Assembly: GCF_964355755.1 (NCBI RefSeq)
Contig: NC_092675.1
Coordinates: 3,692,312-3,756,311 of the forward strand
DNA: 64,000 nucleotides
Source: Antedon mediterranea
Lineage: Eukaryota; Echinodermata; Crinoidea; Comatulida; Antedonidae
Direction: 5' to 3'
Shown: positions 27,078 to 63,154 of the stretch, piece after piece
Layout: the number at the start of each line of letters is the position of its first letter
Position numbering within the stretch: the stretch's first letter is position 1
Position numbers and translations under genes: made by a program
The notes under the pieces: generated by a model
Told to the model about the DNA's origin: nothing
Seen by the model: only the letters and a program-made list of their open reading frames with translations
Database searches by the model: none

Positions 27078-29386
27078 CTATTTATTATTTGTATGCCAAT
27101 CAAGTGCTTCTAATGATTCTTGACCAAGTCTTGGAGTTTGTTTCACATCTTTTGATTGGACGAACAAATTAGAATACTTTATTTTCCAATTGTTTTGGAG
27201 CGCAGGATCTCTAATTAGTCCAAAGTTCTGCTCAAATATTCCTAAACAATTTGACCCCTGATGCAAGGTACCACACACACCAACCATCATCAATCCATGC
27301 TTGTTCATTTTACCTTTAGTTCCGAAGTTTTCTAAGTTTGGATTAAATATCAATAATTCATCCTTTGCTAGGTTTAGTAAACGTTCTGCTACCTGATTAG
27401 CATCTATGTACTCTTCCCTTCTATATTCATCAGCCGTTTTGATTGTTAAAACAAGTTTACAGTCGTACCAGAAATGTTGAGGCCCCCACGGTTCTGACTG
27501 AACTTGACTGCTTTTCGGGTTATTTGAGTTTATCTGCTTGTAAAACCATGAAGCAAATTGTAATGCTAAGTTCTGTTCTTCTGGTACTTTTTCAGGTACT
27601 TTTTCAGGTACTTTTTCAAGCTGAAAAAACTAATGCATTTAACTATTTAACTACTTTTACTTCAAAACTTAAACAATTTTTAATTTTAAGTTACTAGATT
27701 TAAATGTTGTTTCTGTTTCGTTGTTTGCTGCTTTCTGTGCTCGATTTCTGCCTAATTTACACTTTATCAATTTTGTCCCCCTTTTTTTTTTCGTTTACTT
27801 TTTTTACGAAATATTATTATTGCATATAATGTAATAAAAACATATATTTACCCTATATATTTTTTCATAAAATTGTTACTATGTCACTTTATATTATGTT
27901 TCGGGCTTGCCCAACAAAAGTCCTTCTTCATCGGGATCAAGCCTTCTTTCAATGTTATTTTATCATACTATGTATCACCTTTTATTTTGTTACCATGAAA
28001 TTGAAAGTAAATCAATGTTTAAATGCCAATTCCAAAAAAAAAAATGTTTAAATGCAAATTTAATTCCTTCTATTCCTTCTTTTTTCCTTCTAAATTTATA
28101 ATTAATTAATTGTCTGTAGTTAACTGGCTGTAGTTAACTGGCTGTAGTTAACTGGCTGTAGTTAACTGGCTGTAGTTAACTGGCTGTAGTTAACTGTCTG
28201 TAGTTAACTGTCTGTAGTTAACTGTCTGTAGTTAACTGTCTGTAGTTAACTGGCTGTAGTTAACTGGCTGTAGTTAACTGGCTGTAGTTAATTGTCTGTA
28301 GTTAACTGGCTGAAGTTGTTCAGTGAAGTGTAAATTTTTATATCAATATACATATACAATATATAATATATATTTAGGGCTAGTGTTGCCCCGAAAGCTC
28401 TGCAACATATTTATGGCTGTTTTACTTTATCGTTTTGATTTAGCTTTTTGCTTATTTTATTTGTATCTCCATTGAGATCCAGCTACTAATAATACCAACA
28501 TTTTTTCAGTATTTTGCTTTTTGATTTATATATTAATGCAGTATATATAAATAAATAATAATTTTTAAAAGCATGTACAAGTGGCAGTATTAAAAGCAAA
28601 GCGTACAGCCCTAGAAAAAATAATTAAAAAAACTAAGGATACAATATAAAATAAATGAGAGATTAAATTATCTAATAATCATCACAATCTAATTTATGAG
28701 GATGATGTATTACAGTTAATGATATCTAAAATTATGATAAACATTTTTGAAAAGTACACAAATATCATCATCTTGTGTGAAACACAAATGTACACAAAAG
28801 AAAATAAAAATTATACCTTTTCTGGATTGCTTGAGTTTGGGGAATGAAGAATCTTGTCAACCAGATCTGATTTACTAGCACTTCCAGGAAGCGGCACCTT
28901 CTTGTTTGCTAAATATTGGAAAAGGCATGACCGGCTAATTTTCTTGCGGCTAAGTAGCTCAGATGCACTTTCAGTGTAGGTAAGTATTGCATCAATGGTT
29001 TCTGCAAATTTGATTTTAGTGAAATTTAAAACATATGACGTGGCCAGCTTATTATAGTATAATATATGTAATTTCAGACAGGTCAGAAGTTAATTGAATT
29101 AGCCTAATATGATAAACTATGAGCAGGGCAGCTAATTTTGTAAGTCTATAAGCCTAGGCTCTTCTCTAGGCCTATTTGTCCGACCTGACCTGAATTGAAC
29201 TTCCGATCGAACTGCCTCAAAACCGAGTTTGGGGAATTTCCAGCCCGGTACTGCTGCAGCCTTACCTTCCACTGAGTGAGTTTTAATAAGTTTGCTTGTG
29301 ATAGTATCTTTTAACGATATCAATTCTTTCTCCGGCAAAAATTTTAACAAATGTCTGAATTCCTCTTTTTCCTCTTCATTAAGCAT
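27078..29386 (-). CDS. C3orf38: C3orf38 homologue
   Basis: Exon 1 is 29266-29386, exon 2 is 28817-29001 and exon 3 is 27078-27620. The splice sites are GT-AG and the phases are consistent, giving 282 residues. The N-terminus ([20 protein letters not shown], then LKDTITSKL) and exon 2 ([20 protein letters not shown]) match the helical N-terminal part I recall for vertebrate C3orf38. Exon 3 carries its C-terminal, NTF2-like part: NLALQFASWFY, EPWGPQHFWYDCKL, GVCGTLHQGSNCLGIFEQ and FGLIRDPALQNNWKIKY. Human C3orf38 has been linked to apoptosis, with little mechanism known. Exon 3 opens with three 12-base repeats encoding EKVP. The gene converges on the cystine-knot gene (stops 0.8 kb apart). Exons 1-2 and the upstream region are duplicated at 43115-46545. 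Confidence 0.9.
28111..28313. repeat. 14-bp minisatellite (CTGTAGTTAACTGG)n
   Basis: About 14 tandem units of CTGTAGTTAACTG[G/T] with few substitutions, each containing GTTAAC, in intron 2 of the C3orf38 homologue. Confidence 0.95.
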
Positions 29387-29814
29387 ATTTGACAGTCTAT
29401 GCCCTCTTACAGGGCAATTAAAATAAAAAGCCTAGGCCTAACTTGCAAACTAGCTAGGCCTCTTGTTATGATGCTCTAATGAAAAGTACGCCCTCTATAT
29501 TGGTATAAAGTGGTAAGGTAGTGGAAAGATTGCAAGATTCCTTTTTTCAACGAATGAACGCATTTCTTTTCATTCAACGAATAAACAAATTCACAAACAT
29601 AGTGTTCTCTAAAATAAACCTTTCTTTAATTCTTTATTTCGGTTCGGTCATCAACACACCTCTTCTATTTTGAATACAAAATATGCCGTTACCACCTTGA
29701 ATATCAAAGGCGGAACTTAAAAAAAAATACCATTGCATGTGACAATCAATTATATTTATGAAAGTGTAACATGTAATAAAATGCTAATTGTGGTGATTAA
29801 AACAATTAAACAAT

Positions 29815-30160
29815 AAATTTGATAACAACCTGAAATATTGAGCCATAAAATGCAAAGCCTCAAAGTTGCCAGAAACAGTCTTTATGACAACACCGCTAGA
29901 ACAACTACAGCGGTAAGTGAGGAATATATTAAAGACGATTAATTTGTTTTCGGGTTTTTTTCTACGAAACTTTATTTAAAGATGTATGGTCCCCCTAAAA
30001 AAATTAATTATTAACAACATTTTTTTTTAATATGCCATTTTATGTAACATAATAATAAGCCACTTTGGATTAACTTTATTAAAACTATCAAATATCATAT
30101 TCAAAGTCTGATTTAATTAATCTTCATTTTTTCATTTTTTGGGACAATACTGTCAAGCTT
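29815..30160. repeat. Dispersed repeat family R1, partial copy
   Basis: Shares CCAGAAACAGTCTTTA and TCAAAGTCTGATTT-ATTAATCTTC with 35640-36560 and with the segment interrupted at 46540-46594/52498-53390. Confidence 0.65.
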
Positions 30161-34917: not shown

Positions 34918-36767
34918 ATATAAATTATTGTATTTAGTATAGTATACAAATAATGAATGTTTATGAGTTGGATGAGTCGAACAATTGACTGTTCTATCTT
35001 TAACGAGGTACAACTGAGTTGAAAATAGAGAGCAGTCAATTTTTCATCTAATGAAATATTCTCTCCATTCAACGAATAAAAAACATTCATTATTTGTTTT
35101 ATATTATTAGAGCGCGTTAATAGCACCATTATATATCACTTTTCCGTTAGGTAGGGCTACTATTCCAAATGACTCGTGATGCGTATTTAACCAATCAAAT
35201 TGCAAGAATACAATCAGGTGTGTTATGATTTTAGGAAAGTATATACCGCTGTTTTTTTATTAATTAGGCCTATATCATAATTATGCAAGAAACGATACTG
35301 AAAATATTTGTTGTTGTTTATTATTTATTTCTTCTTTTAATACTTGGTCTTCAGTATACGACACTGTTTTCTCCGATGATCCAGTGTCATGGAATAGCAC
35401 ATTTTGGATCGTTATCGTGTAGGCCTACATTATACGGCGCCCTATGATTTGGTTTTCCGTGCCAGTACGTCCAATAAAAAAATGTGAACGAGGCGTGACG
35501 TTTAAATTGAATAGAACTATTATAAGCTCTACCAATTCTTGAATGGGAACAACATTTCCAATGCATGTCGTCACAATCAACCAATCACATTATAAAATGT
35601 TATAAGTAGGCCTACCTTCTTGTTCATCATAAAAATATAATTGCATCAATTCATTTCACTTGAAATGTATACTTTATTACAAACAACACACAACATAAAT
35701 GCGAATCTCAAATACTGAACCATAAAACTACGAAAGCGTTCAAAAAAAATTCCAGAAACAGTCTTTACACAACTTCGTCAGAACAGCACCTAAAAACGGT
35801 AGTTCTATGATGTGACTTTTATGCCTTTTCAATACACAATGCAAAAATGCGATTGCTGTGTATAAATAGACCTATCCTAATAATAGATAAGAGGATTGTA
35901 ATTTAAAAAAAGTGATTGTTAATGTATGGAAAAGAAGGCTTATAAGCTTGGTTACCACTAACATAAAAATGCTACGCAACGCAAGAAAAAACTCTTCTCA
36001 ATTTCGCATCCCCCTCATATACGAGAAGTTGAATCAGCGCTTTTGCGAAGGTGTTGTGTTCGGTTCCCACACGCAAGAAGATTATTAATATTTCTAAAGG
36101 ACATACTATCAAACAACTGCAATTTAAAGCAAAAAAATAGTCAGTTTTTTTGTTAAATTTACCCGTTTACAGTACAGTATTTTACCTTTTTTTACGGCCT
36201 ATTCAAAGTCTAATTTTATTAATCTTCCTTATTCATGTTTTTGTGGAGACACATCTTTAAAGTACAGTATATATAAAATCTGGTCCCCATGGTACCTTAA
36301 GTTAAATTTGTAACCTTTGCTATCTTAGGTCAACATCATCAATGTGTTTCTCAATAAACTACAAGTAAACATGTTTTCCTAATATTGTATTTTTCTTTTA
36401 ATTTTATTTTAGAATATGTAGGCGAAATTCAATGATTTGTGTTTGTAATTTATATGTTTGCAATATCAAATATACATATGCCACAATTAAAAGTATAACC
36501 TTAATATTTGTAATTAGCATACTGTTTATGTTTATAACATCAGATTCTAGGCTGGATTCTTAATTGTATTTACGAGACGAAAACATAGTTACCTCGCACG
36601 ATGCGAGACGGTTGGTAACTATGCGAAAACAAACGTGACAGACCATTCAAGTTTCAGACTATAACTAAGTTTATTGCAAATATTGAACATGTGCACAACT
36701 AACAAAAATAACAAGTCCTATTAACATCTCTTCTATACTTTAAATGCTTTATCTTAAACAACACTAA
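34918..36767. other. Gene-free interval with dispersed repeat R1
   Basis: No exon recognised. About 35640-36560 belongs to the R1 repeat. A diverged palindromic MITE copy may lie at 35943-36075. Confidence 0.5.
35640..36560. repeat. Dispersed repeat family R1, uninterrupted copy
   Basis: Shares long words with 52500-53390 (CAATAAACTACAAGTAAACA, AATTCAATGATTTGTGTT, TGTTTGCAATATCAAATATA). It also shares ATCAAACAACTGCAA and AAATAGTCAG with 46560-46594. It therefore shows the uninterrupted state of the site into which the 46595-52497 element inserted. Confidence 0.8.
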
Positions 36768-37595: not shown

Positions 37596-39300
37596 TAGAT
37601 TCAATTCGTCACTATGGCGAATTATAGGTTATATGCATTGATTTATATACAGATAGTTGATTTTTAAAAGATATATTGATTGATTGACTTTGTCTGAATT
37701 ATTTATAATATATGAACGATAGGATCTTGCTAATGCAAATACTAATAGCCAGTATCACAATCCGATCAAAGATCCCTCCGCGTATAATTTCATTGTTACA
37801 TAATACTAAAGACATAAGTTACTTTTTCTCTAGATTTCATTATACATCATGCGTATAATCTAGCAGTAGAAGTAAAATTGAACAAATAACACGGATATAA
37901 AAAAAAATTATTTCGTTTCGTTTGCCAAGCCTCGACTCGACTCGATCTCGGTACCTTGAATGCTATAGACGCGAGCACAGACCAACGAGAAATACATACT
38001 AAAGTTGTAGAAAGTTCCTCCGTGAATTTAGTATGAAATCACTTTGGTGCAGATAAAGTATTACATACCGCAATGAATCATAATTGAATCAAGATGAAAC
38101 TATTAAAGAAAGGTTGTAAAACAGAAATCAGGCAAATTAAAGTTTAACGCGAAGTGCGCGTGCAAAAATCTGCGCACTCATGGCAATTTTTTTAACTCTT
38201 AAAATTGCCTGAAACGTACTCTAATTTTATCGAAAATCAATTTTAAAAATTGTAAGCGCGCGTATGCATGGGTTATATGCACTACGCACGTACTTGTATT
38301 GCCATATGATGAAATATGACCTGAAAATTATGAGTACCATCTAGGTCGTGCCCACAGATGGTTCTCGAATGCACAGTAATTTCAACGTAAAAAAAGCAGG
38401 CGATTTCAAAAATACATACCGCAGGACTATTAAACATTGTCATTTACAGAAACAAATAAATAGAAATAATGATTTATGTAGTCAACCAAAATTAGCACCC
38501 TGGGAATTACTTCCGAAAGAGAAATTTGTCACAAAATGAGTTCAAATTTCTGATTTGGACTCATTTAAACAAACCCAATTTTATCTAACATTAGAGTTGA
38601 GGGTTGGGAATGAGGATAGGTACAAAGAGGAACAATTTTTTAATATATACTTTATATTAAAGCTCAGATACAGGCATGAATTTTTAATACGATATGTGGT
38701 TAATTGTACAAAATCGAGAAATTGAGACGAAAAAAACATGAATTTCCCTTAATATGGTCAAATACAAAATTTGGCCAAATTCTTCCATAAAAACCAGGAA
38801 GACTTTTTTTCAGTAGTTAGGTAGTTAACCTAATGTAAAACATGTCTGGTGACTCCCTAGATGGTGAAAAAATATGGTGGATATACGGTGGAGAATTTTT
38901 GCTATAGCATGAAAATAAAAATCTGAAGTTGAATAAAAATATCAGAAATGTAATATTCAAGTTATATTACCTATATTTAGTCATCTGATAACATTTTTTA
39001 CTACACCGTTTATTTTTCATAGCTTTTTAAAATGCCTCTCTATTTACAAAATTTGTGTACAAAAGAATAGAGATTTTAATGTGTAATTTGAACTATCCCC
39101 CCACTGCCTGATAAGAAAGTGCTTATTTTCAACAAGCTCGTGTAACACAAATAAAATCCCAAAAATTATGAAACATGAAACACGAAACTATAAATCGATA
39201 ATTATTGGAATGTATGATCAATAGAAATTTTTTGCCCGCACCTGGCCTTTAAATTATTCTTTATATTTCTTTATTATCCAGTAACGAAATATTTTTTTTA
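37596..39300. other. Gene-free interval
   Basis: Nothing coding is recognised. 37735-37880 (CAGTATCACAATCCGATCAAAG, GTTACTTTTTCTCTAGAT) shares a repeat with 45485-45530 and 46020-46080. Confidence 0.5.
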
Positions 39301-41949: not shown

Positions 41950-43080
41950 ATGAATAAAGATCCAATACAAAAATTGTACCTAAGTCGAGTCAAAAAACGA
42001 TATTAAATTGTGTACAAGCAACAACTTTGTAACATACACAATCTATTTTTACAAAATTGATCAAAACGATAATTATATAGAAGATTATGGAAGTTATAAT
42101 AATAATAATAACTTTATTGAACATACGCCTTTAAATCGGCGGCACACGTTCTTCTGGACGGTGCGTTCTTACATACATTACATACATAAAGTTAGCCAGA
42201 AGGCTAAATAAAAGTATAAAGAGAAAATAAAAGAAAAAACATTTAAATGAAAGGAAACGAATTGTATAAAAAGAAACTAAAGAGCAAAAAGTACAATACT
42301 TAACTTTGATGGAGTGTTATTATTTATTATTAGTATTATTATCAATGTTATTAATGTTAATTTTAAAGAAAATATTATTAGACCTATTATTAAAAATGTC
42401 ATTTAATTTAAATATTATATTGTTTATTATTATTTAATTATTTATGTTCTTGTTAATACTGTTTATCATTTAATTATGTTATGAGTTATGATCTTTATTT
42501 GTTATTTAGTTAAAGTGGTATTATTTTTATTATTATTTTGATTTTCCTAATTTTAAAATTTAATCTTATTTTTAGTGTTTTATTAACCATTTTACCTCCT
42601 GATTTAATTGTGTTTTTAAAGTTTTGTAAATATAAAGTTAAAGTTTCCATGCATAAGTTAAGTGTTGTTTACAATGATGATACAAAATACAGATATAAAT
42701 AAAAGGCCTAAAATGAACAGAAATTACATTTGCAAAATTAACAAAATACATTATAAAGTTAAACATAAGAAATAAATGAATGACAAGGCATTTTAAAATC
42801 AATTGATACAGTAAAAAAAAAAAAAATAAAAAAAAAAAAAAAAAAAAACAACAACAGCAACAGAAATTTAGTTAGTTAGCTGGCACCACCTTGGCCCATC
42901 AGTCTTTCAAGGGCGAGTTGTATAAGACCACCTGTAGCTGTGAGTGCCCTTATGTTTGCATCCCTATCTAAAAAACCTATACTTGCTAACTGTTCTAGTT
43001 GAGTCCGAAATTTAACCTCTGGAGCCTGAAAAGAGAGATTAATTGAACTTTAGTGTTTTTGCATCATGACTACATTCTGA
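41950..43080 (-). repeat. Duplicated 3' end of ubiquilin (UBA exon, 3' flank, start of intron)
   Basis: It matches 54405-54720: ACGATATTAAATTGTGTACA, CGATAATTATATAGA, the UBA exon, and intron bases GAGATTAATTGAACTTTAGT and CATCATGACTACATT. The copy is split at about 42095-42862 by inserted retroelement sequence with a TAA tail on one side and an A-tract (42813-42848) on the other. It forms the 3' part of the chimeric gene. Confidence 0.9.
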
Positions 43081-46000
43081 AAATTTTTTTTTTTCTAAAT
43101 TAATTAATTACTTTTCTGTAGCATGTACAAGGGGCATTATAAGCAAAAGATTTAAGCGTACAGCCCTAGAAAAAATAATAATTTTCAAAAGCATGTACAA
43201 GGGGCAGTATTAAAATCAAAGCATACAGCCCTAGAAAAAAATAATTTAAAAAATAAGGATACAATATAAATATAGAGAAAAAAGATAAAATTAATTATCT
43301 AATAATCATAATCTAATTGATGATGATGATGATGATGCATTAGGCCTACAGTTAATGATATCTATAATTATGGTAAACAATTTTGAAAAGTACACAAATA
43401 TCATTATCTTGTGTGAAAAACAAATGTACACAAAAGAAAATAAAAATTATACCACTGCTGGAGATAGAGAATGAGCAAACTTGTCAACCAGATCTGATTT
43501 ACTAGCATTTCCAGGAACCGACACCTTCTTGTTTGCCAAATATTGGAAAAGGCATGACCGACTTATTTTCTTGCGGCTAAGTAGCTCAGCTGCGCTTTCA
43601 GTGTGGTTAAGAATGCTTTCAATTGTTTCTGCAAATTTGATTTTAGTGAAATTTAAAACAAATGCTTATTATAGTATAGTATATGTAATTTCAGACAGGT
43701 CGGAAGTTGGATAAATTAGTCTATTTGATAAACTAAGAGCAAGACAGCTAGCTAAGTTTGTAAGTCTATGCCCCTTCTAAGCATAGTTGTTTGGACTTGA
43801 CCTGGATGGAACCATGGAGGTAGGAGAGAGCTTAAATGCATGTAAGTAAGCAGCGGGTACTGCACCAACAGGATTTTAATTGTTTGTAACTACTGTGTGG
43901 AGTAGCTTTGCATCAGGGTGTGAGTAATTGGTCAGATGTTTTGCCCTACTCTGACGTAATTTTTACTACTAAGTACATTGAGAATATAATACGCAAGTAA
44001 TTCTCGGGTGGGACTCGAACCCACGACCTCCAGATCACTATCCGGCGTTCATACCTCTAGATCACCGAGCTGATGGCTAGAGGTAGATTCGAGTCCAAGC
44101 AGCGGGTACTGCATCAGCAGGATTGTAATTGTTTGTAACTATCAGGTGCTGTGGAGTAGATTTGCGTTAGGGTGTTGAGTAATTTGTCGCAAGTATTCTC
44201 AATGTACTGTACTTAGTATTAGTATAAAGTACAAATTACGTCAGAGTAGGGCAAAACATCATTAAACATTATCAATAATGTTAAAATATGCCTAGGCCTA
44301 ATATGATTATTAATGTATGGCCAGGTAGCGATTTTTTTTTTCGTACATAAGTTGGGGACCCCCTCATGGAACGTCACAAAATAAACATGAATAATTCATC
44401 AGTTAAATGTTCTTGTTCCGTGTGCACCCAAGCGTATAGCAACAAGAAGTGATTACACAAGTGCGGTACGATTCTAGGCCTATCTCCGCTGTTGTTGCGG
44501 CGTGCGATTTCATAGAAGAATAGCGGCGTTTTGTGTGGATTGTCGAAATAATCAGCCTTTAGTTTATGGTGTTTTTAATATAATTTATTACTAAAGAATT
44601 ACGTGTTAAAACTATAGTTTCTATTAATACTATTAGGCCTAATTATTAGTCTCTAAACCCATGTCTATTTTAGTAGTACAGTAGTAGTAGTAGTAGCTGT
44701 GTGACGTGTGTGTGTTAGGTATGACCAAAGATAGTTACACTTACTATCTTTGGTATGACACAATCCGAGTAATAAGTCAGCAAAATTAAACAATAAACAT
44801 TACACAAAAATACATTTTTGATTCTCGTGGGTGAAATCTTCCCATCTCATGTGTTCATATACGCGCATTTTTAAAATTCCTTTGAGTACATGCATATTGT
44901 TTGATAATAAAATAGCAGAATTAAAAAAATACAGTACACAAATTATACACATTCTTTATTCTTGTGGGTCTAAGCTTTCTTTGGGCTATGTCCAATGAAT
45001 TACTACTAGTTTAATGTCTTGCCTAGCTGTCGATTAGCCTCGACTCGACACATTTTGTGTGAAGAAGAGTGCGCGAAGGCAATCACGTGAATTGACTTGG
45101 AATCCTAGGCCTACTGTAGAAAGTATCGTATCGCAGTTGTGTAATCACTTTTTGTTGCTATACGCTTGGGTGCACACGGAACAACAAATTTAACTGATGA
45201 ATTATTCATGTTTATTTTGTGACGTTTCATGAAGGGGTCCCCAACTTATGTACGAAAAAAAAAATCGCGGCCAGGTAGGCAGTTTTATATTTTTAATAAT
45301 AATATGCATACATAACTACGGTACAGTAATTTTATTTATTTATTTGCATTTTTGACTTAGGAAAGAAAAATAATTGTTGCAGGCTTTGCGTTGTTAGGAG
45401 AGTAACACAAACCAATGCCGACAAGAAAGGTAGATTTCAATTACAAATTCAACGTGCCTTCAACATTGACATCAGATCAAATACAATAGCCGGTATCACA
45501 GTCCGATCAAAGATTCCTCCGCGTAGGAATGTCATAAAAGACTCTTATAAGAGGTCAATAACATCATTAACCTCACTTCCGGTCATTTTGGGATAAAATA
45601 TTTCATTACACTTACACCAAATAAAAATATGCATGTTCTGAACAATTTGGGCCTAATCCCAATTTTCTATGATAAGCCATTACCGAGATATGATAAGACC
45701 AGGTCAAAGGTCAAACTGCCAGAAACTGCAGTAGCGAACATTTTTTGACAAAATTTTCTGTTAGAGTAAATAGGAATGTATATATCGTGAACTATTTGAC
45801 ACCAAAATCAATACTCTACGACAAGCGGTTACAAAGTTATAGACAAATTAAAATGGCAGCCATTTTGGACGCCATCTTGAATTTCTCGGAGAGCACAATG
45901 AGGATTTTTCAGGACTTTTAGTATGATGTTCCAACCATAGTTCTGGACCTTTCCTGAAAAAATTAGCTTGTTACCAGAAATGTCCGGGTCAAACCCTATG

Positions 46001-46292
46001 CTCTTGGACTATTATAATAATAAAGACATACGTTACTTTTTCTCTAGATATCATTATACATCATGCGTATAATCTATACACTAATTTTATGAGCATCATG
46101 GCGGACTACAGTACTACTACAAGGTTTATCGAGTTGTTTCGGGAATTTCCCGTCCGGTACTGCTGCCTTACCTTCCACTGAGTGAGTTTTAATAAGCTTG
46201 CTTGTGATAGTATCTTTTAACAATATCAATTCTTTCTCTGGCAAATACCTTAACAAACGTCTGAATTCCTCTTTTTCCTCTTCATTAAGCAT
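42876..46292 (-). CDS. Predicted chimeric gene: C3orf38 N-terminus + ubiquilin UBA domain
   Basis: Exon 1 is 46172-46292, exon 2 is 43453-43628 and exon 3 is 42876-43025. Exons 1-2 are a diverged copy of C3orf38 exons 1-2 ([40 protein letters not shown]); exon 3 is a diverged copy of the ubiquilin UBA exon ([44 protein letters not shown], stop). C3orf38 exon 2 ends in phase 0 and the UBA exon starts in phase 0, so splicing gives an open 148-residue protein. Donors, acceptors and the start are intact, and exon 2 is 9 nt shorter and exon 3 is 6 nt longer than the parents, all in frame. The canonical MGF of the UBA is IGF here. The C3orf38-like upstream sequence is also duplicated. UBA domains bind ubiquitin; a function for the fusion is speculation. 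Intron 1 holds SINEs and a MULE-like element. It could also be an unexpressed duplicate. Confidence 0.7.
43850..44275 (-). mobile_element. Two adjoining SINE copies (family 1)
   Basis: Reverse-oriented tRNA-like head (GGACTCGAACCCACGACC is the complement of box B; ATACCTCTAGATCACC that of box A) with the family-1 body (GGAGTAGCTTTGCAT, TTTTGCCCTACTCTGACG). A second, partial copy follows at about 44100-44275. They lie in intron 1 of the chimeric gene. Confidence 0.8.
44328..45268. mobile_element. MULE-like TIR element, 941 bp
   Basis: Inverted repeats of about 150 bp start GCGATTTTTTTTTTCGTACA at both ends and include GTTGGGGACCCC, GTGCACCCAAGCGTATAGCA and GTGATTACACAA. A perfect 9-bp duplication, GGCCAGGTA, lies at 44319-44327 and 45269-45277. 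Long TIRs with 9-bp duplications are typical of Mutator-like elements. No transposase is present. The interior has a perfect 12-bp stem with a 7-nt loop (44724-44754). Confidence 0.9.
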
Positions 46293-47531
46293 ATTTTACA
46301 GTCTAAGATAGAAACTATATTTGTTTACAGGAAAATTAAAATACAAAGCCTATCTCGGCCGCTCCTCTTTGTTATGTCATGGAGTAAAGGTTATGTTATG
46401 ATGCTCTAACTGTAACTCTTACTCTAATCAAAGATAGTACTGTATCTTTGCTCTAATGAAAATTACGCCCTCTATATTGGTATGAAATCTTCCTGGTAAG
46501 GAAGAGGGAGTGTGGGAAGATTGCTGAAAGATTCCGTATTTTGATAGCTTCTTAAAAGTACATCAAACAACTGCAAAAGCAGAAAATAGTCAGGTAGTAT
46601 CCCCATTTTACACTTTCTCTGGGAAAAAATTAGAAACAAGTGTTTCTCAACTGATTTGTGTCATTTGGGGTCTATATATCCACCAAAAAAAAGTTCCAGC
46701 TCATCTGGCCTGGGGAAACTTAAGTCACCATTTTGGATTTTTAAAATGGCCGCCATAAATTACATTTGCTCATAACTCAGCTTCTACATCATGTATGGAC
46801 ATGATTTTGGTGGTAAAGTATATGTTTTTAGGGTCAAGGAATCCAAATACAGCATTTTGAAGATTATTCAATGGTCGCCATTTTGTTTTTCAAAATGGTC
46901 GCCATAAAATACAGATTTTCTCATATCTCAGCTTCTACAAATTATATGAATGTGATTTTGGTGGCAAAGTGTATGTTTTGAGGGTCAAGGAATGCAAATA
47001 AATCATTTTTAAGTTCACTAAATGACCGCCATTTTGTTTTTCAACATGGCTGCCATAGCATTTTACAGAATTTTCCACATATCTCAACTTCTATCATCAT
47101 ATCTGATTTTGGTGACTAGGCCTAAGTGTATGGTTACAGAATAAACATTTTCAAAATCTTATACCTTGCCATATTAGAGTTCAAAATGGCCGCCATATTG
47201 TATTGCACAGTATATAGTTTTTGGGTTTCGAAATACAAATACACTATTCTGAAATGTTTTTTTGCACAATTGCTATTTTTTATCTTTAAAAATGGAAATG
47301 GTCATGTAGTCCGTGGATTCATAACATATAGCATTAAAATCCATGTAATTTGAATATCTACAATAAATGACTATAAATGATTATGATTTACTGTATTATA
47401 TCTCTAAAAAAAAAAAATTTATTTATAAAATATCAGAAATTATAATGTTTTTTACTCAAATATGAATGAAAGAAATAAATGTTTATTTGAATTGAATTGA
47501 ATTGAAATGGCCACAATAAACATACAGCTTA

Positions 47532-51911: not shown

Positions 51912-52497
51912 GTCTCCGGTGTATTTGGTAAACCATCCATTCACGACATAAGACGCTGCTTTAAATGGGATCTCTTTTGTCACAAAAAGCATATATGATG
52001 ATAAAAGCTGAGATATGAACAAAATTCTGTAAATTTTATGGCAGCCATTTTGAAAAACAAAATGGCGACCATAGAGTGAACTAATTTGCATTCATTGACC
52101 CTCAAAACATACATTTTGCCACCAAAATCACATCCATTTATTTTGTAGAAGCTGAGATATGAGAAAATCTGTATTTTATGGCGGCCATTTTGAAAAACAA
52201 AATGGCGGCCATTGAGTGAACTTCAAAATACTGTATTTGGATTCCTTGACCCTAAAAACATATACTTTACCACCAAAATCATGTCTGTACATGATATATA
52301 AGCGGAGTTATGAACAAAAATCTGTAATTTATGGCGGCCATTTTAAAAATCCATAATGGCGACGTTCCCCAGGTCAGATGAGTTGGAACTTTTTTTTGGT
52401 GGATATATAGACCCCAGATGACACAAATCAGTCGAGAAACATTTGTTTCTAATTTTTTCCTAGATTGGCCCTTTTTAGACTTAATTTAGGGATACTA

Positions 52498-53390
52498 AGG
52501 TTTTTTGTTCGCCTATTTAGAGTCTGATTTTATTAATCTTCATTTTTTTTCATGTTTTGGGGGAACATCTTTAAAGTATGTATATAAAATTTAGTCCACA
52601 TGTGGTAGCTTAAAGATATATTGTCCCCCTAAAAAAATATTTTTTTTGAATATGTTATTTTAATGTCACATAATAGTTATTCACTCTCACAAAAAATTGG
52701 GTCTGAAAAAAATTTATTTACCTGAGAAAAATGTAATTTAAAGCAAAAAATGGTCAAATTGTCTGGAAAACAATGAGTTTTTGGGTAATTTAACTGTTTA
52801 TTTTGTCTTTTTATAGGCGAAATACTTTTTTTCCCCCGTTTTTTTTCTTATGGAAGTGAACTACTTCATTAAAACTGCAAAATGGCCCATTCAAAGTCCG
52901 ATTTTAAAAATCTTTATTTTTTATGATTTTGGGGGACAATACATCTTTAAGTTCAGTTTTTAACCTTTGCAATCTTAGGTCAACATCCTTTAATAAATGT
53001 CTTGTTTTTATGATTATTTTTCTCATTCTAAAATAAATTATTTAACATTAGATAACTGTAGTAGTTGTCGCTAAAATAAAAAGTAAGTTTTTTTATGTTG
53101 TTTATAATTTTTTAAATACAAGAGCTGTACATGCTTATATATTCATTTTTTCACTCCACGATAAAACAAAGTCATCAATGTGTTCTTCAATAAACTACAA
53201 GTAAACATGTTTTCCTAATATTGTATTTTTTTTTTTTTTTTTAGTATGTAGGGGAAATTCAATGATTTGTGTTGGTAATTTATATGTTTGCAATATCAAA
53301 TATACATATGCAACAATTAACAGTATAACCTTAATATTTAATATTGTAACTAGCATATTGTTTTTAATCTATCAATATTGTGTGTATTAC
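52498..53390. repeat. Dispersed repeat R1, right part of the interrupted copy
   Basis: Continues the R1 repeat beyond the 5.9-kb element; matches 36140-36560 with extra sequence near 52620-52880. R1 words CTTTAAAGTATGTATATAAA and CAATAAACTACAAGTAAACA are present. Beyond it, 53391-54515 has no recognised gene apart from the MITE at 53751-53917. Confidence 0.7.
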
Positions 53391-53917: not shown

Positions 53918-54515
53918 TAGGTAGAACTGTGATGCAAATTTTATGATAGGACACTATAAGATGAACTTTTAAAATCGAAAATAACTGACTTCTGTATATT
54001 TGAATAGCTAATTTCCATGCTATACAAATAAATATGAATAATTCATTATTTACTTTTATGAAAATGACATATAGTTATATATATTTATTTTTAATTGTGA
54101 TGAAGTTAATACTAAAAACAGATGAATCTTTAATACGAATGATAAACATTTGCACCGCTAAATTATTGACCACATAAACCTGACTGTTTCTGATCTGGCG
54201 GAAATAATAATCATTTTAAAGAAAAATGATTAATAATGCTATCATCTTTTTTAGTAGCGATTATAAAATATTTATAATAAAATATTAATTATACTAAACT
54301 TAATTATTTAATCCATGTAATCACTTTATATCCCCCTTTGCTTAAAATCAGTATGTATAGATAAAAACTATACCATTACCAATCTATACAGTGATCAGTG
54401 AATTGTACCTAATATTTAAAGTCAAGCCAAAAACGATATTAAATTGTGTACAAGCAACATACATAATCTATTTTTACACCGAAACGATAATTATATAGAG
54501 GATTATGGGTAACAG

Positions 54516-57500
54516 TTAGCTGGCGCCACCTATCAGTCTTTCAATGGCGGCATTTACATCACCATTTGTAGCCGTGAGTGCTCTTATGTTTGCATCCCTA
54601 TCTACAAAACCCATAGTTGCTAATTGTTCTAGTTGCGTCCGAAATTGAACCTCTGGAGCCTGAAAAGAGAGATTAATTGAACTTTAGTGTTTTTACATCA
54701 TGACTACATTTGTTAGTAGAAAACACCCCCACTACATATTAAATATTTGCTATATGCATAAAATGTCTGTCCTAAAACTTCTGCCCAGTTCTCTAACAAG
54801 ATTTACTGGAATCAATTGCAAGAGAGCTGACTTATTTCCTAAAACTTACTGCCCCTAACCCAAAAACTAAGGACTCTGGGCTCCAGTTCTATAAGGTGAA
54901 GTTCAACGATTCAACCAAAGAACTGGCTTGCTAAAAACTGTTGACCTTTAAGCTTATATAAGCCTAAAAGTTCCTAAGTTGTCCTATAACTAAAGTCATG
55001 CATTATTCATTCCTTAACACATTAGGAAAAAAATAAAGTTATCCCTGTTCTTACCTGAACTGTATTTGCACCTGTAGATAATGACTGCATCATTGTTGAC
55101 ATCATTTGAGACCACTGATCTGCATTGGGTGCTGAGCCTGTAACGGTGGGGGCTGTTGATGGTGTGCTACTTGTAGTTGTACTTGTTGTCGATACATTTG
55201 CTGTACTAAGTGTTGGCATTGTCCCAGTCAATCTAACAAAACAAAATACTGTACATTATATATATTTTAAACAAGACTGGGTGATGTTACACTAGATATT
55301 AGTGGGTGTGTCTGCTTTATTTAATTAATAATTTGTTTGTTATTATTTAAATATACCTGACGACCTCTTCAGTCCAGAGGTTGTGATGTACAAGTGCACA
55401 CGAGCTAGATTTTGTGACTATCATTTAGCATATGTACTTACTCTAGGGTATAATCCCTTTATTTGATTATGATGGAAAAATAACTGTATACAAGTGTACT
55501 GTATATAACATTGGTTTAAAAAGATAACGACAAAGACGAGCAGTCTGTTGTTACTATTTTCAAACACCTTATACTTTTTTTATGTTTCACACATTTATTC
55601 ACAATTACATTTACAATATTTAATAGTATACCAAAAGAAGAGAGTGCTCGTCAGTTTGGTAACCATTATTTAAATGCATTTAAAGGTACGGTACATACAA
55701 CATTCAACACAAATTATGTAAAAAAAGTAAAAACATTGGTCGCCTGCGACCGGTCAGCACCTCCGGTGACGTACATAAGCGCGACCACCAACCAAAGTGA
55801 CCACCACAGGTGAGGTATAAAAGGGAAAAAAAACAGGATGAACACTGTTTTTCCCCTGGAAGCACTATACCGATCATAAGCGACTCAGTAGGCATATAAT
55901 AGGCAGGGCTCGATTTAGTGCTAGCCCGGCGTACAATGGCTAGTAAAAACAGCTCCGGGCTACCTAAAGTATCTTCCTTTAAGCCCGGATGGCTAGTAGG
56001 TTGTGGGAACTCGAAATTGGGACGAAATGACCTCATAAAAATAACTCCAGCATAAAAGACATATGTCTTGGCAACATCAGCAAAAAAAACCACTCGCGCG
56101 CTGCTGTGGCCATAACAAGTGATGATGTAGGCGGAGCCTCTCATAATCAAGCCAATTTCCCGAATTATGATTGGCCATTTATGTTTTTGTCACCCAGGTT
56201 ATTGTGAAGTAGGCAGAGCTTCATTATCAGGTCAAACATGTCACAAAAATATGACCATAAATAACAAACTGTGATTGGCCAAATGTAGTAGAATTTTGTC
56301 AATGTTAAAAATACTCGTCTAGTCTTGTCAGGCCTGGTTGTCACAGATCAAAGCTAGGGATATTTTGTAGGGCCGGGTGGCTGGCTCTATCCCTGTAGGT
56401 AGGCCATGGAGGCCATATTTTATAATATGCGTAAGAGGCCTAGATAGAATCAAAAGCCATCGTTTGGCATCGTGATGGCTGCTCAGCAGCTAGATACTAC
56501 CATTTTGGTAACAGTAGGCCAGGTGCTCCAATGCGATCTAGGCCTAGGCCCTAGGCTAGGTCTATCCTAGCTACCCTACTATAATAATAGGCTCTAGGCT
56601 AGGCCTAGCCTAAGGTAGACAGAATCTAATTAGTTTTCTTGGCTAGGTTGAAGCCCAACAACAAAAGACCTCAATAAATCGATTCTGTGAATATGGTGAG
56701 CATGAAATAGACTGTGCGTCGCGACGCAAAGTTAATTTTTATAATGTGAACAATAAAGAAATACAATTTTGTGTAATTTTTCATGCAATAATAGTTTAAT
56801 ACAGTATGTATGTAAATGTGTAGCAATTCTCGAACATTTAGATTAGTGCGCCCTCTATTGAACAAAATGCCTGAATTCATTTATATGGCAGCCCTGCTGC
56901 AGCTATCACGGTGCGATAATAAGAGTGGGCTAGTAAAATAATGTATGGGCTAGTGAAATCTACAGTGAACTAGCCCAGTGGGCTAGCAACATGAAAAAGA
57001 TAAATCGAGCCCTGATAGGCCTAATGTTTTTGTTTAGTTTCTCCTCTTTTTTTAGTATGTACTCAATATCATTTCTTTAGTTTCTTTTTTAACAGAGTAT
57101 TGGGATTTTAATCTATTTGTTTTATAGAGCGAGTTCCAAACATTTGGTATGTACATTTTCTTTGAATTTCAAAGGTTTTTTGGGTGTTCACTTTTTTTAC
57201 TTACCCAGGTAAGAGGCCTGGTGCTTCTTGTTGTAGCTGTTGCATTCCCTGTTGTATCTGCATGATTGCCTGTACGGCTCTTGGATTTGTCATAGCCGAC
57301 TGCATCTCAGGGTTTTGCATCTTTTAAAAAATAATAAAACATCATATCATACTATAGTGCATAGTTCTTAAAAAATGTTCCATAAGGATTTTAAATCATG
57401 CAATATTTATTAACATATTAAATTATCATTTAAACATGTAATGTACATAAATTTGGTATTTTTTTAAATCCCTGTGTTGCCTTTCTCAATTCTGTTCTAC

Positions 57501-60500
57501 ATGCATTCAAATACTCATCAACCATGCTGTTATAATCGTTCAGACATAGACATATTTTACTCTGTCTAACTAGTACTGCTTGATGAAAATATAAGTACCT
57601 GCTGTAGGAATGTTGGCATCATCTGCTGCATCTGTTCTTGAAGTTGAGAATTTCCAGCAAACATTGGATTAGACGCTAATACCTAGTGTAGTAGAAAGAA
57701 ATATCTTTTGATTTGAAATTACTGGTAATTTAAACTTTGATTCTTATTTACCTTTAGTCAATCGTCTAGAAATTTATTTACTTCACTATACTGTAGACAC
57801 TCTCATTAAGACAAGGAGACACATATGTTCTAACACTACGGCTAACCCCTATTCAGGGGAAACCTTCTTAAAGGGAAACTTTAGTGCTAACCTGTGAAGC
57901 AAGCTGAGGGTTTTGACTCATGTTTTGCATCATGCTTCTCATGTACGGAGCCTGCATCATGTTCTGCATCAGCTGTGGATTGGCCGACATCTGCTGCATC
58001 ATACTTTGCATTCCAGGACTGTTAAAGATACCTGTAGACAAGGAAATAAATACAGCTGTTAATAATCGAATCAGAGTTGTTAGCCTATGGATCACAGGTG
58101 TTAAATGATGGATCACAGGTGTTAAACTGATGAATCACAAGTGTTAACTGGTTGATGACAAGTGCTATCTGGTGGATCACAGGTGTTAACTGATGGATCA
58201 CAGGTGTTAAATGATGGATCACAGTTGTTAACTGGTTGATGACAAGTGCTATCTGGTGGATCACGGTGTTATCTCTTGGGTCACAGGTGTTAACTGATGG
58301 ATCACAGGTGTTAACTGGTGGATCACATTTGTTAGCCTATGGATGATAAGTGCTATCTCTTGGGTCACAGGTGTTAACTGATGGATCACAGTTGTTAACT
58401 GGTGGATGACAAGTGCTATCTGGTAGATCACCGGTGTTAACTGATGAATCACAGGTGTTAACTGATGAATCAGATTGTTTTAAATAATATAAATATTGTA
58501 TATAGTAATAATGTTATTAATATACAAATGTACTTATATTATTTCCATTTTAATTGGCAAAATAAAATTGAATCTTGAATTGAATCTTGAATCTTAACTG
58601 ATGGATCACATTTGTTAGCTTATGGATCACAGATGCTAACTGACGGATCACATGTGTTATTACTGGTGAATCACAGTTACTAACATGTGGTTAACAGGTG
58701 TTAGCGGGTGAATCAAAGACAGGTGAATCCCAAGTGTTACCACATGTGGATATCATCAAATATGTAATCTCAGATGTTATTACCTGGTCCAGGTTGAACC
58801 CCACTTAAATTAGGTGTTGTGGATGCTGTAGATGTTGTCGTTGACGGTGTACTTGATGCAGTAGTAGTAGTTGTAGCAGTTGATGGTGTTGACCTTGCAC
58901 TGGGTGTACCCCATGGATTAGGTAGAGGTTCTGAGTTTTCCCTACCCTGTTGCGAGGCACTGCCACTAGATGAAGCTTTAAAAAAATACAAATAAAATAC
59001 ATTACATAAACTTTCAATCTTGGATATTAAATATGTGACAAAATGACATTAATGTTAAAATAGTGTTCATTATGGTGTGCATCGGTGACCATTCATCAAA
59101 TACGTCTCTGTGGGCACAGGAATAAAATAACATTTTGCAAAAATAACTGTTACTTACTATTACCACTAAGAGCTGCAAATGGGTTGCCTCCAAGCTGTTC
59201 TTGAGCTGCATTCATCATTGGTTCTTGTATATCTGTATACATTCTCCGTAGGGCATTGTAGCCTCCTGGGATACTCTGCAATCAAACAAATAAACAGTTG
59301 AATATGGGTGATATCCTTTCAAAATATAGCAAAATATATTTAGATGTAAGTAATCATTGGGTATAACTTTATTATTATTTCATGAGCAATTTAATGTTAA
59401 GATTATTTAAATAGATTTCATAATTGATAATGTGACATACTTCTAGATTGCTTAGAGCTCTATCTTGGCTTCTCATCATCTCCTGCATCATAGATGGGTT
59501 ACGTGCTAGTTCCATGGTTTGACGCAGTAACTCTGGGTTATTTAACATGTGGGACAATTCAGGATTCCTCTGTAAAACAAAATCATAGTTATATTATTAT
59601 AATAATAATATCCTGATTTATATAGCGCCTAATGTTGTGAAACCTCTAAGCGCTGAACATTATTACCCCAGTCATTTTTTTGGATCAAACACGCATGGGA
59701 ACATACTCCCATAAGGCAGCTAGTAATCAGCGCAAAGTTGTGTCTTGATCTAACCAGATTCCCATATTATTCATCCAACACACTGCGCCACACGCAGATT
59801 GTGATGTGTCAAAATATGGTATTGATATACCCAAATATGGTTGTAGTTTATTTAAGATTAAGAGTTATTAACGCGTATTACGTAATGATGCATTGTGTTT
59901 ATATGTATCAGATTAAGAACGTACGCTGTTGTTGGTCGTGTGCGCTGTATTTAAACAAGTCAAAATAGTGTTCTCATAGGTGTTATGCATATTATTAGTG
60001 AATGTATTATTAAGTTAATTAGAATGTTATATGTCTGTTTGTTTCAGGTTTTTCATGTAAATAAAGCATTTCTTTACAATACAAAAAGCCAAGAAAACTC
60101 ATTTGTTTTCACAATTCACATTCTCCCACAGTAGTGATATGACATCATCATGTCCATATATGGGCACATCACATTTTTTTGTCACATAAAGTTTGATAGT
60201 GTAGACAGAGCTTTACTAACTTCCATCAATTGTTGCATTTGAGGATTACTCATCAACATTTGTCTTAACATCTCTGGATTCTGCATCATATTCTGTACTA
60301 ATGGATTCTCCATAACCTGTTGCAACATCTCTGGATTATTCAACAGCTAAAAATAACACAAAATATTAAAAGATGTGGTATAACGTTTTCACATTAAACG
60401 CCACGATAGCGCTAGAACCACTCACATCGTCTAGAAACTCCGGAGAGATCCCATTTACATTAAACCCTGCACAACCGAGTTTGCAATAAAAAAAAAAGCT

Positions 60501-62813
60501 TAAATACTGCCCTGTATCCTGCTATGGATGATGAATACAATACAATTGGAGTGAGTGGCCAAGAGGTTAATAATAATAATATTTATTCAGCAAAAGTTCT
60601 TAAAAGTATGTTTTACATTTCATCTTGCCAGGAAAAAGTAATAGGCATGAGCCCAAACAGAAAACTGTTTTGACTCCATCATTATTATAAAATACAAAAA
60701 AAAAACAAAAACTAAGTAGTACAAAATTAAATTAAAAAAATACACCAATTAAGAATAATCTGCATTGAATAAACTTAAAATAATTTAATATTTTGAGATC
60801 AAAGGATTAGTGAGTTGGGCTTTAAAGTTGTAGCACATTGTCTAATTGCATTGTTAAGATAGCGGAACAATAATTATGTAGCCATAACATGGGTAAGGGT
60901 TTGAGGTTTACTCACTCCATGGTTCTGGTGGTAAAACGAGTCTTCTCGGATAAGGACTATAAACCGTAGGTCCAGTGTACACATCTGCCTCATGTGCACT
61001 TTAAAGAACCTAGTACATCTTTCGAGACAAGTAGGGGGTTACCCCAGTGTACTAGTTCACACACATCATGGAGGATTTTTCTATGGTTATATAAATATAC
61101 AAGTGAGTGAGTAGCCGAGAGGTTAAGACAGTGGAACCGTAATACGTTGCCATAACATCGGCAAGGGTTCAAGACTCACACGCACCATGGTTCTGGTCTT
61201 CTGGGATAAACTTTAGGTCCAGTGTACACATCTGCACTCATTTAGAGTCGATTTAATATTTACCTGGCTTTGCATCTGTTGTTGCATTTCCATAAAATTA
61301 GCTGATCCTAGGCCCATTCCTCCAAGGCCACTGAGTCCACCCAGCCCACTTCCAAATGGGTTTTGTTGTGCTTGAATAGGAGGTGGGGCTGCAGTAGTGG
61401 TTGATGATGATGATTGAGAAGATTGTTGTGCATGTTGAGCTGCTTGTTCTTGAGCCTATTAAAAAGGGTAAAAAAACATTTTTTACATTTATACTAACAT
61501 TTTAATTTATTTCATTTTATTTCCACCAAGTAAACTTCTGTAAAATATCTACTTTCAATTGGAGATATAAATAAACGTAACTGATTTTTCAAAACAATAC
61601 ATAAAATATTTTTATTCAGTTTGTTTTTTGTTTGTATGAAGTTTTCTTGTTTTATAACGCACCTTTCCGGAAAAAATTGTTATAGTAACTGTACACCTCA
61701 GTGATATTATTAATCAGGGATTTGAATGTATGGTGTATTTAGCAAGAGATTTTAACACAAATTTGAAATTGCAACCTCAAGTTAAAAAATCATGTTCTAA
61801 TTATTTTTAATACAGATTATTTATCATTGCCAAAACTGATCTGTATGTTAGTATAACATTACTGGTACCAGTTTTTATTCAGGTTAAATGTAACCAAATG
61901 GTACAGTACCAGCATATCATAATAATTTGCAATTACTGATGACCTTCAATGTTACCTCAAAGCTTGGTTCCCACTAGAACGCAACACAAACACGTAAGCG
62001 CAACGCAAGTAATTTTACCAATCATGACGCCATAGATCATCTAAACTGTTGCTTGTGATTGGTCATTACGTAGAGCTACGTCCTTACATTGCGTTCTATT
62101 TGGAACCAACCTTACGAATTTTCATATAAACTATTGTTATTTAAGGGCTATGTCCACAACTCAATACATCTAACTCAACATTTTAGTCTTTATATATATA
62201 TATATATTGTATTGATATTTATTACTGTTATGTGTTTTCCTGTATTTTAAGTGTAATAAGCATCAAGGAAAACAAATTTTATGTTCGCCTTGTTGTGGTC
62301 ATGACCATAAAGTTTTATCTTATCTTATGTAACCATTGGAATTATTCTTATGGTAAATTGAGTGGAGCTGTAGCTTGGTGGTTAACGTGCTTGCCTTCCA
62401 ATCCCAAGGTCCCGGGTTCAATCCTGACCTAGTGCAGGGTTGTAACTCATGACTCTTTCACCTCCACTCCCTAAGCCTCAAATGAGACTTAGTTTAAAAG
62501 CACGATAAATTATTAAATAGTTTATCCATCCTGTAATTGGCGAGTTACTCGCTGTTGGATGAGTATGAATAAAAAAAAAAAAAAAAAAAAAAATTTAAAT
62601 ACAGTATTAGATGTGACACTGGACACGGTAACATAATTTCCTTATACAGTATAATCTAGATACAGAAGGGAAAATAGATTACAATTGACAAATAACCAGG
62701 TTATGTTAGTTGGTTTGAATTTCCCTATAGTCTGAATGTCTACTAAACATAGATAGAGCTTACTTTGTTGGCAGATCTTATGACTAAATGAACTGTTAAT
62801 CCATCCTTGATTC
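54516..62813 (-). CDS. UBQLN: Ubiquilin (5' end outside window)
   Basis: The eleven exons, all GT-AG and phase-consistent, are 62764-62813, 61264-61455, 60221-60346, 59441-59569, 59158-59275, 58784-58975, 57892-58031, 57599-57682, 57205-57320, 55055-55232 and 54516-54659; about 488 residues are visible. The first is the end of the ubiquitin-like domain ([16 protein letters not shown]). Then come a Gly/Gln linker with [20 protein letters not shown]1 repeats rich in NP-M ([60 protein letters not shown]), a Ser/Thr-rich linker, and a second STI1 pair ([20 protein letters not shown]). Last is the UBA domain ([20 protein letters not shown]). Ubiquilins shuttle ubiquitinated and membrane proteins to the proteasome: the UBL binds the proteasome, the UBA ubiquitin, the STI1 regions clients. 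The start and most of the UBL lie past the right edge. The last exon is duplicated at 42876-43025. Confidence 0.97.
55904..57014. mobile_element. hAT-like transposon in a ubiquilin intron
   Basis: Perfect 14-bp inverted repeats CAGGGCTCGATTTA, flanked by a 5-bp duplication ATAGG (55899-55903, 57015-57019). Subterminal GGGCTAGT/ACTAGCCC words are repeated at both ends. The 148-codon open frame 55704-56150 crosses the element boundary and is not a gene. It also holds an AGGCCTAG cluster (56530-56615). Confidence 0.88.
58085..58745. repeat. Minisatellite in a ubiquilin intron
   Basis: About 25 degenerate units of roughly 21 bp (ATGGATCACAGGTGTTAACTG, variants TGATGACAAGTGCTATCTGG), interrupted at about 58470-58595 by unrelated AT-rich sequence. 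Confidence 0.9.
59585..59770 (-). mobile_element. SINE family 2, truncated
   Basis: Reverse of the 15780-16050 body: ATAGCGCCTAATGTTG, AACATTATTACCCCAGTCAT, GGGAACATACTCCCAT, AATCAGCGCAAAGTTGTGTC. The tRNA-like head is missing. Confidence 0.75.
60540..61245 (+). mobile_element. SINE family 3 copies and fragments
   Basis: GTGAGTGAGTAGCCGAGAGG (61103-61122) and AAGGGTTCAAGACTC make a tRNA-like head. The body CACCATGGTTCTGGTCTTCT and CCAGTGTACACATCTGC recurs at 60915-60990. A truncated head (GAGTGAGTGGCCAAGAGG) is at 60551-60568. Confidence 0.65.
61960..62116. mobile_element. Palindromic MITE, copy 3
   Basis: AAAGCTTGGTTCCCACTAG at the left and TTGGAACCAACCTTA at the right, with CGCAACGCAAGTAA / GAGCTACGTCCTTACATTG inner arms. 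Confidence 0.8.
62355..62592 (+). mobile_element. tRNA-derived SINE (family 4) with poly(A)
   Basis: Box A TAGCTTGGTGGTTAACG and box B GGTTCAATCC, then a unique body, then GAGTTACTCGCTGTTGGATG and a poly(A) of about 22. It lies in a ubiquilin intron, opposite strand. Confidence 0.8.
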
Positions 62814-63154
62814 CTGTAAAAACAATGACAAATAAATAAATATAAAGAATATAGCACACCATGATATACAATGGAAAGTACATAATTATATAAACCAGTT
62901 TATGGTTATGACTACATTCCATGTAGAGGACATCTTGAAAACACCTCAACGATTTGATTTTATTCGGTTTCAACATAAGATTACAAGACAATATGAATAC
63001 AAACAATTTACAAGCAAATACATTAAATAAGAAACCAGGATAGCTCATGAAGTTGAAAGAAAAATCAACTTAATTCCAATGGAGTCCAATGGTCTTGGAC
63101 TCTTTAAACTTCTAACCTGAGTCCAATTTTTAAGTATCATGCTCTCTTGCTTCT

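Follow-up and report, generated by a model that had tools for sequence, protein, structure and literature searches.

Chimeric genes born from the duplication of neighbouring genes are known from Drosophila. Quetzalcoatl of Drosophila melanogaster is a chimera that arose by tandem duplication of two neighbours and carries signs of adaptive spread. In Drosophila yakuba, 76 chimeric genes formed by tandem duplication are reported in a sample of 15 lines, and the GE18453/GE18451 fusion is described, in which the 5' end of a gene is attached to the 3' end of a second gene (PMC5460883). Sdic of Drosophila melanogaster is traced to a segmental duplication over the adjacent genes sw and AnxB10 (PMC7475035). 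Here, we present a predicted chimeric gene of the crinoid Antedon mediterranea, located in a window of 64,000 nucleotides (assembly GCF_964355755.1, contig NC_092675.1, positions 3,692,312 to 3,756,311 of the forward strand; all coordinates below count from the first base of this window). The chimera combines the 5' part of a C3orf38-like gene with the 3' part, the UBA exon, of a ubiquilin gene, and lies on the same strand as, and between, both of these parents, the ubiquilin gene being traced from a UBL-like exon to its last exon.

The chimera is a clear further case of a recognised gene-birth route, in another animal, and the mechanism is not new. Quetzalcoatl is alike in its origin by tandem duplication of neighbours, and its adaptive spread sets it apart. 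The GE18453/GE18451 fusion also stems from one tandem duplication, and the parental transcripts are given as unaltered there, as both parents are in place here; the Drosophila yakuba chimeras differ in coming from a population sample with RNA-seq and in being, many of them, very young, whereas the present chimera is known from sequence alone and, with introns that are 9% different, is older than many of those cases (PMC5460883). Sdic resembles it in a duplication over two adjacent genes and in a chimera standing beside its parents, but the present fusion needs no deletion and is found in one copy in this assembly (PMC7475035). With regard to its protein families, the chimera is like the C3orf38 family over the first third of the DUF4518 domain and is without the remaining two thirds. 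Its 49-residue UBA exon is homologous to the ubiquilin UBA domains (2JY5, 2KNZ, 7F7X; 49.9 bits to ubiquilin-1), from which it differs in the MGF loop, where I stands in place of M, and in helix 3, where D, N, A and I are replaced, and the model contains no ubiquilin part besides this exon. A literature search gave nothing for DUF4518 and only apparently irrelevant results for ubiquilin or UBA fusions, by which publication of such a fusion is not excluded.

Gene model and its origin

The predicted gene consists of three minus-strand exons, namely exon 1 (46172-46292, 121 nt, with the ATG at 46292) and exon 2 (43453-43628, 176 nt), which are copies of the first two C3orf38 exons, and exon 3 (42876-43025, 150 nt including the stop codon at 42878-42876), which is a copy of the last ubiquilin exon. 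Joined, these exons give a frame of 148 codons from ATG to TAA, and both introns begin with GT and end with AG (donors gtaagg and gtataa, acceptors ttgcag and ttttcag), such that four of four splice sites are intact. The exon coordinates, start, stop, splice sites and 148-residue frame put forward in the initial annotation were all recovered from the sequence, as was the agreement of phases (0/0) at the joined exons. Its statement that the length differences keep the frame also holds as a net result, exon 2 being shorter by 9 nt and exon 3 longer by 6 nt than their parental counterparts, although the gap pattern in exon 2 depends on the aligner: MAFFT places a single 9-nt gap, a second nucleotide aligner gaps of 1, 7, 2 and -1, and the difference may comprise several compensating changes near the exon end.

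Homology to the two parents is extensive. Stretch 46136-46352 matches the C3orf38 parent (29227-29434) at 85%, 43170-43812 matches the same gene (28550-29200) at 82%, and 42874-43076 matches the ubiquilin parent (54514-54710) at 87%; in a search within the window all three matches have E values of at most 7e-67 and are therefore not due to chance. Genome-wide searches covered the 354-Mb assembly of 18 contigs, with very common words skipped. Two of the three stretches were searched in this way and were found in two places each, the chimera and the parent only, and the 148-residue protein gave six exon-wise matches at E up to 1, every one of them within the window. Against the C3orf38 parent, exon 1 differs at 7 of 121 nucleotides and exon 2 at 21 of 175. 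The start of intron 2 behind the exon-2 donor (43341-43452) differs at 10 of 112 ungapped positions, is at least as parent-like as exon 2, and perhaps represents a conserved intronic element.

On the minus strand ubiquilin comes first, followed by the chimera and then C3orf38, all three in one orientation. A tandem duplication running from the last intron of ubiquilin through the intergenic stretch into intron 2 of C3orf38 would leave both parents in place, and its junction would yield the C3orf38 5' flank and exons 1 and 2 joined to the ubiquilin UBA exon; a single event of this kind gives both halves and the junction without any further step. The junction was claimed to lie inside an intron near 43080-43120, and the ends of both intron homologies bear this out: the ubiquilin intron ends at 43076, the C3orf38 intron starts within 43120-43179 on the minus strand, where part of the C3orf38 intron-2 sequence is present a second time, and the two are separated by about 43 bases (43077-43119) of A/T-rich filler without specific match to either parental intron.

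Because a tandem duplication spans the intergenic stretch, the DNA between the two genes is predicted to be doubled as well, and three pairs of remnants share orientation and fall in the predicted intervals. The first comprises a downstream copy (36336-36527) and an upstream copy (53172-53363), 89% alike, the latter found in two places in the genome, itself and its partner. The second is formed by the chimera 3' flank (41982-42090) and the ubiquilin 3' flank (54419-54508), again with two places in the genome, and the third by 46449-46541 and 29472-29547. For each of the first two pairs, one copy was used in a genome-wide search, and the third pair comes from the comparison within the window. 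One tandem duplication, a cause that the initial annotation did not name, is preferred because it accounts at once for gene order, orientation, the two halves and the remnants between the genes, which rules out two separate partial duplications; a retrocopy origin is likewise ruled out, as the introns were copied too. We regard the tandem-duplication origin of the chimera as settled, with very little room for doubt.

The two donors named in the initial annotation, C3orf38 and ubiquilin, are both present in the window in the same orientation, as the window matches establish. The C3orf38-like parent (27078-29386, minus strand) has three exons (29386-29266, 29001-28817 and 27620-27078) and a product of 282 residues that scores 284 bits against Pfam DUF4518 and covers profile positions 1-270; we take DUF4518 to be identical with C3orf38, in agreement with the naming in the initial annotation. 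Its intron 2 also carries an array, located downstream of what was duplicated (28106-28317), in which the 14-bp unit TTAACTGGCTGTAG occurs 15 times. The ubiquilin parent (54516-62814, minus strand) owes its label to PDB matches to ubiquilin-1, -2, -3 and -4. Its last exon is 54659-54516, the limits of its other exons were set by eye, including the end of the penultimate exon at 55055, and its first traced exon is presumably the UBL part.

Constraint on the two halves of the predicted product

The C3orf38 part of the chimera has largely kept its resemblance to the domain family. The whole chimera scores 89.8 bits against DUF4518 (Pfam cut-off 27) over profile positions 1-94 of 271, and residues 2-92, matching the first third of the domain, score 90.8 bits compared with 95.8 for the parental counterpart; everything beyond position 94 is absent, and the chimera does not contain the full-length domain. 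There are 18 replacements relative to the parent, of which the first 14, introduced singly into the parent, shift its score by -2.5 to +1.3 bits. For a neutral comparison, the Pfam profile served as outgroup and the parent was randomly mutated under the condition of an open frame, with ten simulations per load. The test is less exposed to bias because of this conditioning. Assuming equal mutation rates on both branches, a neutral chimera would carry 20-26 of the 33 total differences, and at 20 changes the simulated scores range from 68.8 to 84.7 bits, with none of ten reaching 90.8. In this small sample, the C3orf38 part thus looks constrained at the level of the predicted protein.

The UBA part presents a different picture. 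Its score against PF00627 is 16.1 bits in the whole protein and 19.2 bits as an exon alone, compared with a Pfam cut-off of 22.4 and a score of 34.4 for the parent. Under neutrality 12-15 changes are expected here; with 13 changes, six of ten mutated parents fall below 19.2 bits, and with 7 changes three of ten are at or below that score, one sequence without a PF00627 match being counted in each case. The drop thus lies within neutral simulations and is like drift, with no visible constraint on the predicted UBA part.

Chimera and parent UBA exons differ at 11 aligned residues in addition to the 6 nt of length. By eye, in comparison with five of the 11 sequences listed (ubiquilin-1, -2, -3 and -4 and one RIKEN cDNA product), one change in the MGF loop (M to I) and four in helix 3 (D to L, N to Q, A to L and I to L) seem to have arisen in the chimera. 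In the parent, L to V, G to N and perhaps I to V seem derived, and the remaining three are ambiguous. The D and A of helix 3, common to all five compared sequences, are lost in the chimera. Ubiquitin binding by UBA domains is associated with the MGF loop and with LL/V where helix 3 ends (PMC3240630). At these positions the chimera has IGF and LM and the parent MGF and LI, which are mild changes, and ubiquitin binding by the chimera exon appears doubtful rather than excluded. The ubiquitin-binding domain originally attributed to the product is accordingly not supported, with scores of 16.1-19.2 bits below 22.4 and the helix 3 D and A lost.

A single-sequence AlphaFold2 model of the chimera exon shows two helices, with helices 2 and 3 run together. 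Loss of the UBA fold on this basis was considered and dropped, as the intact parent, modelled as control, gave an equal result. A Foldseek comparison of the chimera exon model with the PDB listed no match.

Additionally, selection was assessed over the model as a whole. The ratio of nonsynonymous to synonymous divergence (dN/dS, Nei-Gojobori) between chimera and parents rises from 0.28 in exon 1 through 0.68 in exon 2 to 0.98 in exon 3, with an overall value of 0.66. By our reckoning, a neutral chimera would show a pairwise dN/dS of about 0.5-0.6, not 1, because one partner in the comparison is a parent presumed to be constrained; the observed 0.66 is near this expectation and therefore does not speak for constraint across the protein as a whole. 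A dN/dS near 1 had been named in advance as speaking against the gene, and such a value was found in the UBA exon though not overall.

Introns differ between copy and parent at 47 of 531 aligned bases and carry 13 indels, nine of them frameshifting, in a count that leaves out a pair of 1-base gaps ending the UBA-intron stretch. On a simulated neutral chimera branch, an intact frame with intact splice sites had P values of 0.0037-0.0798 in six fixed settings and 0.0067-0.0231 in four settings in which rate uncertainty was integrated, and a conditional test on frameshifts alone gave P 0.042. Replacements over all three exons, not assigned to branch, are milder than random (mean BLOSUM62 0.31 vs -0.40, P 0.004). 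Exons exceed introns in divergence (53/438 vs 47/531), but no positive selection is claimed because the excess lacks significance (P 0.11) and synonymous sites, too, are more diverged than introns (P 0.03).

Expressed gene or relic

Our assessment is that the chances are about even that the chimera is expressed and that its useful part is the C3orf38 N-terminal domain. Transcription would start from the copied C3orf38 5' flank, a putative promoter on the minus strand at 46293-46352 with a further piece at 46449-46541. The transcript would be spliced at 46172/43628 and 43453/43025 and polyadenylated in the repeat behind the stop, where the first AATAAA lies 292 nt past the stop codon. The product, if working at all, would be a free N-terminal DUF4518 domain without the rest of C3orf38, which might serve as a C3orf38 competitor or dosage variant; its UBA-derived tail would be constrained weakly, if at all, and would probably make a poor ubiquitin receptor.

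Several observations weigh against this reading, including its starting point in a single tandem duplication. In the self-comparison of the window, five of 15 matched rows are out of order (29976-30150, 37736-37862) and are assumed to be dispersed repeats. The distance between the remnant pair 36336/53172 and the UBA exon is 6.3 kb in one copy and 1.2 kb in the other copy, a difference only partly accounted for by the insertions seen, and the bulk of the intergenic stretch can no longer be aligned between the copies. With regard to constraint, one of ten simulations reaches 90.8 bits at 14 changes and six of ten at 8 changes. The maximum likelihood dN/dS of 0.72 is far from 0.2 (twice the log-likelihood difference, 2dlnL, 16.6) and compatible with both 0.5 (2dlnL 1.2) and 1 (0.98), and dN is not below intron divergence (37/340 vs 47/531, Fisher P 0.35). 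Further, the neutral-survival P values are biased, because the intact frame is the reason why the locus was reported.

The strongest alternative, which we hold to be somewhat less probable, is that the same duplication left a functionless neutral relic that has not yet been struck by a disabling change. Such a copy beside a constrained parent would resemble what is seen in the pairwise dN/dS of 0.66 overall and 0.98 in the UBA exon, the UBA score, at 19.2 bits compared with 34.4 in the parent, falls within the range of the neutral simulations, and the most lenient neutral setting keeps the model intact with P 0.08. In addition, repeats have landed in intron 1 and behind the stop. A relic is harder to reconcile with a frame and signals that are all intact while the introns carry nine frameshifting indels in 531 bp, and with a C3orf38 part that outscores neutral simulations at the expected load.

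Both insertions postdate the duplication. The one directly behind the stop (42091-42873) is a dispersed repeat that ends, at 42848, in an A-run on the plus strand; 42091-42812 has 53 matches listed in the genome, the near-full-length ones 92-96% alike apart from one at 86%, and the element 42091-42848 appears retroposon-like. The insertion in intron 1 (44328-45268) measures about 940 bp and has 148-bp inverted arms that are 95% alike. For one arm, a genome search gave 1074 candidate places; the 40 that were scored are 99-100% identical, and the element probably belongs to a recently active foldback or miniature inverted-repeat transposable element (MITE)-like family. Elsewhere in the window, a tandem array with 2.5 copies of a 151-bp unit (46724-47106) lies within 46618-47116, a stretch 87% alike to an inverted counterpart at 51979-52464, and minus-strand open reading frames of 403 and 125 aa occupy 11122-12770, the longer resembling by eye a long interspersed nuclear element (LINE) reverse transcriptase.

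Two further readings are unlikely. According to the first, the chimera founded a new family, selected in this lineage, in which the N-terminal DUF4518 domain is combined with a re-shaped ubiquilin UBA whose altered helix 3 would bring the C3orf38 domain a new partner, ubiquitin-like or not. The second, which we would give slightly less credit, has the copied exons serve as alternative exons of the parents, exons 1 and 2 being spliced onto C3orf38 exon 3 at 27620 (phase 0) or the UBA exon being used as an alternative last exon of ubiquilin. The phases agree, gene order permits read-through, and such use would explain constrained-looking exons 1 and 2 beside an unconstrained-looking UBA exon; the splice onto C3orf38 would nevertheless have to span about 15.8 kb and bypass both the UBA acceptor, which lies nearer, and the AATAAA sites behind the chimera stop, and in the ubiquilin version the unconstrained UBA speaks against use. 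An assembly artefact, in which two haplotype contigs that overlap between ubiquilin and C3orf38 were joined in series, would produce an identical arrangement and fusion, but we consider it highly improbable in a window that contains no N, with UBA exons differing by 11 residues and 6 nt and a chimera UBA below the cut-off, which is too much for two working alleles, and with a partial second copy and filler at the junction.

Meaning for chimeric gene birth

The chimera may be no more than a relic, and the mechanism that formed it is already known. As a case it is legible, with donors, junction and intergenic remnants all within 36 kb, such that the formation of a chimeric gene is readable as a single event. 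If the chimera is expressed, it would further show how an inherited N-terminal domain is kept while the domain attached to it decays or changes.

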